NCBI RefSeq assembly: GCF_027947595.1
Contig: NZ_CP116257.1
Coordinates: forward strand, 4,712,001-4,776,000
Source of the DNA: Streptomyces lienomycini
GTDB taxonomy: Bacteria > Actinomycetota > Actinomycetes > Streptomycetales > Streptomycetaceae
Reading direction: 5' to 3'
DNA length: 64,000 nt
The position numbers and the translations under genes were made by a program. Shown in pieces: positions 15,687 to 57,578 of the stretch (positions are counted from its first letter, which is position 1; each line of letters begins with the position of its first letter). The notes under the pieces are model-generated. The model did no database searches. It was not told the origin of the DNA and saw only the letters and a list, made by a program, of their open reading frames with translations.

Positions 15687-15704
15687 CATCCCACTCACCG
15701 GGAG
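15687..15704. promoter_or_regulatory. Island 18-bp motif, copy 1
   Basis: CATCCCACTCACCGGGAG matches the island consensus GRTCCCACTGACCGGNAS at 16 of 18 positions. Located 100 bp upstream of the ABC binding-protein gene. Confidence 0.6.
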
Positions 15705-15770
15705 CCGGGTGGGAGGGCTCCGACGCGCGGGCGGGGTGGCCGTTCGGCGTCCGACCGTGCCGTGACACGG

Positions 15771-15788
15771 TGTCCCAGTGACCGGAAC
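15771..15788. promoter_or_regulatory. Island 18-bp motif, copy 2
   Basis: TGTCCCAGTGACCGGAAC matches the consensus at 16 of 18 positions, 84 bp upstream of the acyl-CoA ligase start. A weaker half-copy (GGTCCCAGTGAGG) follows at 15836-15848. A small palindrome GACACGGTGTC (15764-15774) overlaps its left end. Confidence 0.6.
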
Positions 15789-15871
15789 CGGCCGGGGAGC
15801 GATCCCCGGTCCGCGCCGAGACTGAGCCCGACCGCGGTCCCAGTGAGGTTCCCGACGCACCAGGAGTCCCG

Positions 15872-17515
15872 ATGCCCAGCGACACGGATCACCGCTCTGC
15901 CGCCCTCGCCCGCGTGGCGGCGCTCACCGGCCCGGGCGGCCGGTTCGAGCTCGCCGAAGACGACGTGCTGGGTGCCCGGCTGCCGGTCTTCACCCACCGG
16001 CAGCGGGCGCTGCACGAGGTGCTGCACGCGTCGGTCGCGTATGCCGACCGCGACTACATCGTCACCGCGGACCGCCGGATCACGTTCGCCGGGCACGCGG
16101 CCCAGGTGGCTTCGCTGGCCCGGGTGCTGCGCGAGGAGTACGGCATCGCCAAGGGGGACCGGGTGGCCATCGGCGCCGCGAACTCCCCGGAGTGGATCCA
16201 GACGTTCTGGGCGACGGTGTCGATCGGGGCGGTGGCGGTCGGCTTCAACGCCTGGTGGTCACCGCGCGAGATGGCCCACGGGGTGGCGAACGCCGAGCCG
16301 TCGCTGGTGGTGGCCGACGCCCGGCAGTCGGCGAAGCTGGCCGACTGCGGGGTCCCGGTGGTCTCCCTGGAGGACGAGGTGAGCCGCTTCGCCGTGGCCC
16401 ACCCGGACGCGCCGCTGCCGTCCGCCGACGTCGCCGAGGACGATCCGGCCGTGATCCTCTACACCTCGGGCACCTCGGGCCGTCCCAAGGGCGCTGTGCA
16501 CACCCACCGCAACCTGCTGGCGGTCGTGGAGTACCACCGGCTGAACGACGCCCTGCTGCACGAGTTCGGCGACCCGCTGACCGCCGAGGACCGCGTCTAC
16601 CTGCTCACCCTGCCGCTGTTCCACATCGCCAGCCTGCACAACCTCGCCGTGCCGCGGCTCGCCACGGGCAGCAGGATCGCGCTGCACCAGGGCGCGTTCG
16701 ACGTGGACGCGGTCCTTGCCCTGGTCGAGCGGGAACGCGTCACCAACTGGGGCGCGGTGCCCACGATGGCGCACCGGCTGCTCGAACACGGCGGCGCGGA
16801 CCGGTACGACACGTCGTCGCTGACGGCGTTCGCGCTGGCCTCGGCGCCGTCGACGACGGCGTTCAAGGAGCGGCTGCGGCGCGAGCTGCCGTTCGCGAAG
16901 GACTCGCTCGTGGACAGCTACGGGCTGACCGAGTCGTGTACGGCGATCGCGGCGGCGAACCCGCAGGAGCTGGCGGCCGCCCCCGGCACCCTGGGCCGGC
17001 CCGTGACCGGTGTCCGGCTGGAGATCCGCGACCCGCTCGGCGAGGTCCTCGGCGAGGGCGAGGAGGGCGAGGTGTGGGTGCGCAGCATGTACAACATGCT
17101 GGGCTACTGGCGCGACCCCGGGGCCACCGCCGACACGATCGGCGCGGACCGCTGGCTGCGCACCGGGGACCTGGGGTGCCTGCGCGAGGGCCGGCTGTTC
17201 CTCGTCAGCCGCCGCTCGGACCTGATCATCCGGGGCGGCGAGAACATCTATCCGGCCGAGATCGAGACGGTGCTCGTCGAGCACCCGGACGTGTCCGAGT
17301 GCCTCGTCATCGGGACGCCGCACCCCGATCTGGGCCAGGAGGTGGCCGCCGTCGTGGTGCTCCGGCCGGGGGCGGAGGTCACGGAGGAGGCGCTGCGGGA
17401 GTACGCGGCGAGGGAACTGGCCTACTTCAAGGTGCCCCGGCGCTGGCGGCTGACCGACGAGGCGCTGCCGCGCAACGCGACCGGGAAGGTGATCCGGCAC
17501 TCGGTACGGCTCTGA
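15872..17515 (+). CDS. Acyl-CoA ligase (class I adenylate-forming), putative steroid-acid activating
   Basis: 547 aa. Adenylate-forming motifs: P-loop ILYTSGTSGRPKGAVHTH, DSYGLTES (A5), TGDLGCLREG (A7), RRSDLIIRGGENIYPAEIE (A8) and catalytic Lys in RNATGKVIR near the C-terminus. It would convert a carboxylic acid to its CoA thioester. Divergent from the ABC importer with shared 18-bp motifs, so it probably activates the imported acid. A strong terminator follows at 17525-17571. The subgroup (FadD17, FadD19 or CasG-like) cannot be fixed by eye; its exact steroid substrate is inference. Confidence 0.82.
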   Translation: MPSDTDHRSAALARVAALTGPGGRFELAEDDVLGARLPVFTHRQRALHEVLHASVAYADRDYIVTADRRITFAGHAAQVASLARVLREEYGIAKGDRVAIGAANSPEWIQTFWATVSIGAVAVGFNAWWSPREMAHGVANAEPSLVVADARQSAKLADCGVPVVSLEDEVSRFAVAHPDAPLPSADVAEDDPAVILYTSGTSGRPKGAVHTHRNLLAVVEYHRLNDALLHEFGDPLTAEDRVYLLTLPLFHIASLHNLAVPRLATGSRIALHQGAFDVDAVLALVERERVTNWGAVPTMAHRLLEHGGADRYDTSSLTAFALASAPSTTAFKERLRRELPFAKDSLVDSYGLTESCTAIAAANPQELAAAPGTLGRPVTGVRLEIRDPLGEVLGEGEEGEVWVRSMYNMLGYWRDPGATADTIGADRWLRTGDLGCLREGRLFLVSRRSDLIIRGGENIYPAEIETVLVEHPDVSECLVIGTPHPDLGQEVAAVVVLRPGAEVTEEALREYAARELAYFKVPRRWRLTDEALPRNATGKVIRHSVRL

Positions 17516-17524
17516 GGGCCGGAG

Positions 17525-17571
17525 ACGACGGTGCCCCGGCGGCGCGCGGTGCGCGGCCGGGGCACCGTCGT
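17525..17571. terminator. Hairpin terminator
   Basis: A perfect 16-bp inverted repeat (ACGACGGTGCCCCGGC at 17525-17540, complement at 17556-17571) with a 15-nt loop lies between the ligase and the convergent SDR. Confidence 0.8.
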
Positions 17572-17598
17572 GTGCCGGTGGGGGTCTGTGGGGGTGGC

Positions 17599-56543: not shown

Positions 56544-56614
56544 GGCTCTCCGTATGGGGTGAGGGGGCGTGGGGCCCGGGACTGGCTGACTGTGGGTGCT
56601 GCTGCTCCAAAAAC

Positions 56615-56628
56615 TAGAATTCGTTCTG
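56615..56628. promoter_or_regulatory. KstR-like operator upstream of fadA5
   Basis: TAGAATTCGTTCTG resembles the KstR consensus TAGAACnnGTTCTA with two changes, and sits 72 bp before the fadA5 start. KstR controls cholesterol side-chain and ring A/B genes in mycobacteria. Confidence 0.55.
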
Positions 56629-56691
56629 GAAGTGGGCAAGATCCAGTCCCGCTCAGTGGCCGGCGGCCACTCGGCCCCCAGGGGGACCTCG

Positions 56692-57438
56692 TCAGATGTG
56701 CGACCCCCCGTCCACCCGCAGCTCGGCCCCGGTGAGGTACCCCGCGTCGCGGGACGCCGCGAAGGCGATCACCCCGGCGATCTGCTCGGGCTCGGCGGCG
56801 CCGAACGGGGAGCGGATCCGCCCGTAGTACGAGACGTCCAGGTCGGGCGGCAGCACGTGCGGCCCGGCCAGCGGCGTGGCGACCGAGCCGGGCGAGACGG
56901 GCACGACGCGGATGCCCCGGTGGGCGACCTCGGCCGCGAGGGACAGGGAGAAGCCGAGGACGGCGCCCTTGGAGGCGGCGTAGGCGGTCATGTACGGGTT
57001 CCCGTGTGCCGCGGCCGACGAGGCGACGTTGACGACGACGCCGGTGCGGTCCGGCAGCAGCGGCAGGGCCTCCCGGCAGAACAGGGCGGTGCCCACGGCG
57101 TTGACCGTGAAGAGGTGGTGCAGGTCGGCGACGGTCAGCCGGTCGATCGGCGTGGTGCGGTGGATGCCGGCGACGTTCACCAGGACGTCGAGGCCGCCGA
57201 GTTCGTCCGCCGCCGCCCGGACTGCCGCCACCACCGCGGCCTCGTCGGCGACGTCGGCGACGCGGGTCGCGATCCGCCCGGGACCGGAGGCCGCGGCGGC
57301 CGTTTCGGCCAGTCCCTCGCCGGACAGGTCGACGGCGAACAGCGCCGCGCCCTCCGCGGCCAGACGCAGCGCGGTGGCCCGCCCGATGCCGGATCCACCC
57401 CCGGTGAGCAGGACCTTCGTACCTTCGAAGCGGTTCAT
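56692..57438 (-). CDS. SDR divergent from kshA
   Basis: 248 aa. TGGGSGIGRATALRL, NVAGIHRTTPIDRL (NNAG altered to NVAG), catalytic YAASKGAVLGFSLSLAAEV and DGGSHI. Divergent from kshA across a region with two 18-bp motifs. A hydroxysteroid dehydrogenase for a ring hydroxyl is plausible. Substrate not known. Confidence 0.78.
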   Translation of the reverse strand: MNRFEGTKVLLTGGGSGIGRATALRLAAEGAALFAVDLSGEGLAETAAAASGPGRIATRVADVADEAAVVAAVRAAADELGGLDVLVNVAGIHRTTPIDRLTVADLHHLFTVNAVGTALFCREALPLLPDRTGVVVNVASSAAAHGNPYMTAYAASKGAVLGFSLSLAAEVAHRGIRVVPVSPGSVATPLAGPHVLPPDLDVSYYGRIRSPFGAAEPEQIAGVIAFAASRDAGYLTGAELRVDGGSHI

Positions 57439-57515
57439 CGCGGCTCCTCTTCACGGCGTGTGCCGACGGACGGGGCGGCGGACTGTACGCCCGCCGGCCG
57501 CGATGGAGAGGGCCC

Positions 57516-57533
57516 TGTCCCACCGAGCGGGAC
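57516..57533. promoter_or_regulatory. Island 18-bp motif, distal kshA/SDR copy
   Basis: TGTCCCACCGAGCGGGAC matches at 15 of 18 positions, 78 bp upstream of the SDR start; partner of the better copy 45 bp away. Confidence 0.45.
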
Positions 57534-57560
57534 CGCCCCTCGCGCGGCCCGGGACCGGCG

Positions 57561-57578
57561 GTACCGGTCAGTGGGACT
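57561..57578. promoter_or_regulatory. Island 18-bp motif, kshA copy
   Basis: The minus strand reads AGTCCCACTGACCGGTAC, 17 of 18 consensus positions, 77 bp upstream of the kshA start. Confidence 0.7.

Follow-up and report, generated by a model that had tools for sequence, protein, structure and literature searches.

A recurrent 18-bp motif in a Streptomyces lienomycini bile-acid island is the probable operator of a KstR3-type TetR repressor

The window analysed here, 64,000 nucleotides of the Streptomyces lienomycini chromosome (G000:C1:4712001-4776000), holds a gene cluster in which an 18-bp motif recurs. The cluster is an island for the degradation of bile acids and includes a C/D-ring module as well; the motif very probably represents the operator through which a KstR3-type TetR represses the bile-acid (cas) regulon. 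We assign the cluster to bile acids because two of its coenzyme A (CoA) synthetases, CasG and CasI, pass curated cut-offs (Table 1). An earlier note on this DNA had called the first simply a ligase beside the ATP-binding cassette (ABC) importer, which can now be put more exactly, and had labelled the second fadD17, for which casI is the better name. HsaA and a FadD3-type ligase also pass their cut-offs, and a KstR2-like TetR is encoded near CoA-transferase subunits and a nitronate-monooxygenase-like protein; these surroundings we read as the C/D-ring module, including the genes that we take to be ipdAB and ipdC. With up to 19 candidates scored in each genome, the window's own had a CasG above cut-off and none of 60 relatives did, so that the island is accessory.

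A search of the window at up to 3 mismatches returned nine copies of the motif, compared with a mean of 1.79 in shuffled sequence, where nine were reached in 1 of 100 shuffles. The eight copies listed in the earlier note were all recovered at their coordinates with 0-3 mismatches each, and to these is added a ninth, 21624-21641(-). Independent gene calls agree that seven of the eight are intergenic, the exception being 38790, near the 3' end of kstD. The sites lie upstream of casG, casI, kshA and its divergent short-chain dehydrogenase/reductase (SDR), the kstD/tetR pair, a second TetR gene paired with a luciferase-like monooxygenase (LLM), and a peptide-type ABC importer-amidase operon. Genome-wide (7.86 Mb), all 5 matches at up to 1 mismatch fell within the window, as did 7 of 16 at up to 2 and 9 of 195 at up to 3, a level at which the reversed pattern gives 69. 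Among this genome and the 60 relatives, 19 of 61 had any match at up to 1 mismatch, with five in this genome and at most two in every other. Since the string is noisy at 3 mismatches, the weaker copies depend on a matrix and on conservation, and exact-string scoring at that level was dropped in favour of a matrix trained elsewhere.

Table 1. Predicted operators, candidate regulators and associated genes, in window coordinates; operator scores are from the 17-bp matrix described in the text.
Feature	Position	Strand	Context	Evidence
Predicted operon: substrate-binding protein (SBP), two permeases, two ATPases, old yellow enzyme (OYE)-family protein (casH-like), amidase	7151-15530	-		gaps -8 to 52 bp
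Amidase, candidate bile-salt amidase	7151-8587		end of importer operon	
Predicted operator	15687-15704	+	SBP side of SBP/casG divergent region	22.6 bits
Predicted operator	15771-15788	+	casG side, 84 bp from 15687 copy	18.8 bits
casG, steroid-24-oyl-CoA synthetase	15872-17515	+		NF052580, 904.8 bits (cut-off 750)
SDR	17599-18375	-	beside T2	no model over cut-off
T2, second KstR3-like TetR	18385-19056	-		TetR_N + TetR_C_20; 50% identical to T1
Predicted operator	19120-19137	-	between T2(-) and LLM(+)	24.7 bits
LLM F420-family oxidoreductase and SnoaL-like protein	19231-20600	+		TIGR03619, 234.9 bits (cut-off 166.9); SnoaL_4
Predicted operator	21624-21641	-	between SDR 20667-21587(-) and enoyl-CoA hydratase 21718(+)	19.0 bits
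KstR2-like dyad	21683-21696	.	59 bp from operator 21624	2 mismatches to KstR2 pattern
KstR2-like TetR	26491-27132	-		2ibd, E 4.6e-65; KstR2 4w97, E 1.3e-57
KstR2-like site	29117-29130	.	acyl-CoA dehydrogenase/enoyl-CoA hydratase divergent region	1 mismatch, sole window match at that level
HsaA	34986-36152			curated cut-off passed
FadD3-type ligase	36213-37862			curated cut-off passed
kstD-like FAD protein	38730-40397	-		3-ketosteroid dehydrogenase-type models, all below cut-off; name from context
Operator-like copy	38790-38807	+	inside 3' end of kstD, upstream of SDR 37922-38716(-)	15.9 bits
Predicted operator	40496-40513	+	between kstD(-) and T1(+)	25.9 bits
T1, KstR3-like TetR, best candidate repressor	40604-41215	+		TetR_N + TetR_C_20; best PDB match 3bjb, E 9.2e-64
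casI, steroid-22-oyl-CoA synthetase	48875-50536	-		NF052587, 975.4 bits (cut-off 900)
Predicted operator	50714-50731	+	upstream of casI	18.4 bits
SDR	56692-57438	-	divergent from kshA	no model over cut-off
Predicted operator, weaker	57516-57533	+	upstream of kshA	15.1 bits
Predicted operator, stronger	57561-57578	-	upstream of kshA	25.9 bits
kshA-like Rieske oxygenase	57655-58818	+		Rieske-type models, all below cut-off; name from context

For the matrix, we collected loci around relatives of T1, of which 121 were found and 80 kept. Blind two-strand expectation-maximisation on the 300 bp upstream of the 80 orthologous tetR genes gave GTCCCACTgAcCGGtA as the best motif, with a log-likelihood of 777 against 550 for the next distinct motif, and the same search on the 67 non-Streptomyces loci returned GTCCCACTgAcCGGtA again (658 against 535 for the next). 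From one promoter, that of tetR itself, in these 67 loci we learned a 17-bp scoring matrix, which found in the window nine sites of 15.1-25.9 bits, all of at least 14 and seven of at least 18. The background, 40 segments of 20 kb (800 kb) from the same chromosome, held 4 sites of at least 14 bits and none of at least 18. In the window, 200 column-permuted matrices yielded a mean of 0.29 sites of at least 14 bits (maximum 4), and a third-order Markov control with the all-loci matrix gave no site of at least 16 bits in 15 replicates, against 9 in the window. The genome scan, which had been named as a check that could overturn the motif, thus turned up no abundance of equally good copies elsewhere at the strict level (up to 1 mismatch; at least 18 bits). 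The numerous genome-wide string matches at 3 mismatches and the coding position of one copy would fit an origin by chance or by coding constraint in sequence of 73% GC. For the set as a whole this explanation is refuted by the independently trained matrix, the permuted-matrix and Markov controls and the conservation at orthologous promoters, and we regard it as highly improbable, although it could account for copies 38790 and 57516 taken singly.

The shape of the site was examined over 182 non-coding sites, in which the paired columns T2/A16, C4/G14, C5/G13 and T8/A10 were complementary in 129, 157, 182 and 164 cases, and the remaining four pairs in 54-77. Three of the 120 distinct non-coding 17-mers from other loci were perfect dyads over positions 2-16, for example GTCCCACTCAGTGGGAT. 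We read the site as a putative degenerate 17-bp dyad with a strong half, TCCCACT, and a looser half, A[C/G][C/T]GG[T/G/A]A; the derivation of the matrix from one promoter class favours an apparent asymmetry. The earlier description of the arms as weakly palindromic is true of the window copies.

All 80 loci contain a T1-type TetR by construction. The promoter of this gene, which is also the training set, held a site of at least 14 bits in 76 of the 80 loci (permuted matrices: mean 0.15, maximum 6 of 80), the site centre lying a median 90.5 bp ahead of the start. The genera represented include Rhodococcus, Prescottella, Nocardia, Williamsia, Nocardioides, Geodermatophilus, Actinomadura, Microbispora, Microtetraspora, Planomonospora, Saccharopolyspora and Nocardiopsis. 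At the other promoters of the non-Streptomyces loci, counted for orthologs of at least 45% identity, a site was present in 115 of 557 gene upstreams compared with 0.4 expected from permuted matrices, the 115 not being independent because divergent pairs share sites. The fractions were 11/14 for casG, 8/10 for the OYE/casH-like gene, 27/32 for the SDR of the 41237 type, 19/54 for hsaA, 18/52 for kshA and 1/11 for casI. Seven of the gene rows listed were wholly without a site, and several operon-internal genes were siteless (e.g. 0/34 and 0/26).

Within Streptomyces, two sites 82-85 bp apart were found in the SBP/casG region of all nine SBP-bearing genomes, the casG-side copy reaching only 14.5 bits in two of them. 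A pair spaced 44-46 bp upstream of kshA and one site in the hsaB/hsaD region were each present in 7/7 Streptomyces examined, and the casI upstream site in 6 of 9 that were readable. Conservation at orthologous promoters, which the earlier note had put forward as support for its motif, was seen at casG, tetR, casI and kshA. The copy in the 3' end of kstD occurred in 9 of 13 Streptomyces loci and may be an internal operator for the downstream SDR at 37922-38716, for which this pattern is suggestive only. The hsaB/hsaD site of this genome lies just past the window (L192:4749, 15.8 bits), with a weaker one at L192:4680 (12.8 bits, all-loci matrix only); the names hsaB, hsaD, hsaG and kshB beyond the window were read from translations. 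About 12 kb past hsaB, a 16.9-bit operator-like site (L192:17689, G000:C1:4793689) precedes a different TetR-like gene and a divergent gene.

A promoter element, or a site for a global rather than a cluster regulator, would likewise be expected to lie in promoter regions and to keep a steady distance to the start codon of tetR, as the sites do. We give this very little credence, given the concentration of good copies in the cluster, with none of at least 18 bits in the 800 kb background, the ceiling of 2 matches per genome at up to 1 mismatch among the 60 relatives, and the siteless operon-internal genes. A scan of 15500-21800 for sigma-70 promoters and terminators found none.

The best candidate regulator is T1, and T2 is a paralog that may share its sites. 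Following 3bjb, the next Protein Data Bank (PDB) matches of T1 were KstR structures. Its best named match was a Streptomyces coelicoflavus protein (98%; the window's own or very near records were possibly omitted), and it falls with the 80-locus TetR set with a support of 0.96. T1 is 57-58% identical to a TetR of R. jostii (L070:10001-10591), the flanks of which carry kstD- and casG-type genes. This R. jostii protein matched 3bjb over its full length (E 3.9e-123), with 6 differences in 197 residues, or about 97% identity, by a hand count from the alignment. The 3BJB structure was deposited as a probable TetR regulator, and no paper joining 3BJB, KstR and 'TetR family' was among the matches listed in a literature search. 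With NF033703, the KstR model (cut-off 280), T1 scored 111.3 bits, T2 113.0 and the R. jostii relative 124.3, all below the cut-off. A closer KstR relative is encoded elsewhere in the genome (G000:C1:6219252-6219794; 203 bits, also below 280), and a KstR relative from another Streptomycetaceae genome, one without a close T2 relative, scored 201 bits.

T2 keeps most of the helix-turn-helix region of T1, and the T2 promoter itself contains a 24.7-bit site, so that the sites might mainly be operators of T2, with T1 a minor or different regulator. The distribution of operator 21624 can be added to this: together with the neighbouring KstR2-like dyad it was present in four of the seven Streptomyces examined, all T2-bearing, and absent from the three that are T2-less. 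All seven have the same divergent gene pair at this position, and the split may simply follow the tree, reflecting ancestry alone. T2 orthologs (64-92%) were found in 8 of the 12 Streptomyces cas genomes searched and were missing in G356, G357, G359 and G366. The sites at casG, tetR, casI and kshA persist in the first three of these genomes, an observation in favour of T1. A second TetR copy within the 10 kb flanks of other loci was seen in none except L058 and L060. We therefore consider T2 unlikely to be the main binder and retain T1 in that role.

The operators of two related regulators were compared with the motif and rejected as its identity. The KstR operator TNNAACNNGTTNNA had 7 window matches at up to 1 mismatch, none at the nine sites. 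The KstR2 operator ANCAAGNNCTTGNT had 27 at up to 2 mismatches (4.6 expected; many coding), none of which overlapped the nine sites. The earlier statement that the motif is unlike KstR and KstR2 sites is borne out by these searches. The KstR2-like site at 29117 was kept in 7/7 Streptomyces examined.

The importer-amidase operon was named from Pfam matches to 5 of its 7 products and NCBIfam matches to the SBP and the amidase, the second permease and second ATPase being labelled by eye. Of 17 genomes searched, 11 had the SBP: nine Streptomyces, Nocardiopsis (L100) and Nocardioides (L128). No SBP turned up in R. jostii, two Actinomadura, Planomonospora, Saccharopolyspora or S. sulphureus. The amidase was found in 10 of 12 genomes searched, the same nine Streptomyces and Nocardioides speluncae, and not in R. 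jostii or Nocardiopsis. In N. speluncae the amidase gene (G368:C11:235048-236451) and an SBP gene preceded by two sites lie about 0.9 kb apart in convergent orientation, so that the amidase is there a neighbour outside the SBP operon. From gene family and linkage, importer and amidase may act in the uptake and cleavage of conjugated bile salts, and they are concrete candidates for these two steps; in the accessible part of PMC8399759 the amidase of R. jostii is entered as unknown, a single bracketed locus tag being given. Elsewhere in the island, a 734-aa protein (window 53169-55373) has two acyl-CoA dehydrogenase C-terminal domain matches in addition to N and middle domains, giving it the look of a fused double dehydrogenase.

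Computation shows the sites directly, together with the degree to which they are enriched, conserved and associated with the TetR gene, and from this we infer DNA binding, repression and ligand as follows. A dimer of T1, perhaps also of T2, would bind the degenerate dyad GTCCC[A/G]CTSA[C/G][C/T]GG[T/G/A]A at the promoter of T1 itself and at other promoters of the cluster, repressing casG, the importer-amidase operon, casI, kstD, kshA, hsaB/hsaD and others. Incoming bile acid would be activated to a CoA thioester, and by analogy with KstR and KstR2 such a ligand would release the repressor. A more extended idea, which we put forward tentatively and rate as less probable than its opposite, is that Streptomyces has remodelled the KstR3 regulon to form a bile-salt island that is largely self-contained. 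Two repressors of the KstR3 type, paralogs of each other, would act on one operator, a dedicated peptide-type ABC importer and amidase (9 of 10 Streptomyces searched) might import and deconjugate taurine- and glycine-linked bile salts, and KstR3- and KstR2-type operators side by side at one promoter could tie side-chain to C/D-ring degradation.

Parts of such a regulon have been described. In the accessible text of PMC7593942 (2020), a palindrome called Lcin1, TCCCGGT[C/G]ACCGGGA, was predicted before lithocholate-induced orthologs of cholate-pathway genes in Nocardioides simplex VKM Ac-2033D, and KR76_18060, an ortholog of KstR3, was given as the presumable regulator; for the name KstR3, as regulator of the cas pathway, Mohn 2012 is cited there. 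A kshA gene of N. simplex with a predicted Lcin1 site was induced by lithocholate according to the same text. From what could be seen of PMC8228715, kshA1 of R. ruber rose 8.8-fold on cholic acid without having a KstR motif, its regulator being left open. In R. ruber NBRC 15591 (L116) we found a 15.3-bit site in the kshA/hsaA region beside the TetR gene, and this kshA presumably corresponds to kshA1 of R. ruber strain Chol-4. As far as these sources go, both expression results fit the model. The present motif resembles Lcin1 in standing before cholate-pathway genes, in its 15-bp dyad TCCC..TSA..GGGA and in the KstR3-type TetR suspected in the accessible text to act on it. At up to 3 mismatches Lcin1 matched seven of the nine window sites (26 window matches, 7.9 expected), and at up to 2 it had 132 matches in the 80 loci, compared with 13 when every locus was mononucleotide-shuffled once. 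Literature searches on Lcin1/KstR3, on casG/casI/cholate and on Streptomyces bile-acid catabolism found no binding study of the motif, most subscription papers being outside their reach, and one on KstR4 found nothing.

Several observations weigh against the assignment to a KstR3-type repressor. The inner pair of Lcin1 is the opposite of that found here (GGTSACC, G/C, whereas the present sites have mostly C/C or C/G), Lcin1 is a perfect palindrome while the window's own sites are asymmetric, and it scores only about 12 bits with the present matrix; from the inner pair and this score, identity of the two operators can only be inferred, and we place both in one operator family without claiming that they are identical. 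Covariation of paired dyad columns beyond composition was looked for over the 182 non-coding sites and none was found. The training set is unweighted and phylogenetically uneven, with clumps of Rhodococcus and Actinomadura, and four of the 80 tetR promoters lack a 14-bit site: L060 (Streptomyces, 12.2), L071, L073 (13.2) and L112. Of the window copies, 38790 is within a coding sequence and 57516 scores low. Elsewhere on the chromosome, where matrix scoring covered the first listed pattern matches and the 800 kb sample, sites of 23.8 and 17.3 bits lie inside two ftsW-like genes, and a 16.1-bit site is located where a sigma-factor-like gene begins, all labelled by eye; these were rejected as regulon members and treated as decoys. 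A looser 16-base pattern had 4 exact genome matches, of which 3 fall within the window. The fourth is an intergenic, perfect Lcin1-type string (G000:C1:4996861-4996876). Its neighbours, again labelled by eye, are a MarR-like gene and a putative exported protein, and the string was rejected as a member since these give no hint of steroids.

The earlier note had spoken of a new steroid regulon. The motif does mark a regulon, with a cluster TetR as its likely binder, and is real and coherent, but 'new' is too strong: the regulon is not new in kind, since the cas pathway, KstR3 and a related palindrome, Lcin1, had already been described, and what is gained is a fuller picture of a regulon already glimpsed. 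Added here are its extension to Streptomyces and many other genera, the degenerate dyad, the paralogous second TetR, the promoter with an adjacent KstR2-like site, the importer-amidase candidate targets and the crystal structure close to the R. jostii ortholog. The importer-amidase target, the second TetR sharing the site and the KstR2 overlap do not appear for N. simplex in the accessible text of PMC7593942. With a predicted operator, a candidate regulator and the 3BJB structure in hand, binding and ligand are directly testable. This bears on the R. ruber kshA1 repressor left open in PMC8228715 and on the regulation of bile-acid degradation, knowledge of which a 2021 review (PMC8399759) calls limited; in its accessible part the review locates a KstR homolog in the cholic-acid cluster of R. 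jostii RHA1 and gives cholesterol metabolites as the inducers of KstR and KstR2. The name kstR3 has, in what is accessible of PMC10398937, also been given to a regulator of a Mycolicibacterium side-chain operon. The KstR regulon of cholesterol degradation is similar in serving steroid catabolism under a related TetR repressor, with a model match below the cut-off. The KstR2 regulon of the C/D rings is represented in the same island by its own TetR and KstR2-like sites (21683 and 29117); it differs in operator and in TetR, and of the nine sites only 21624 adjoins a KstR2-like site.

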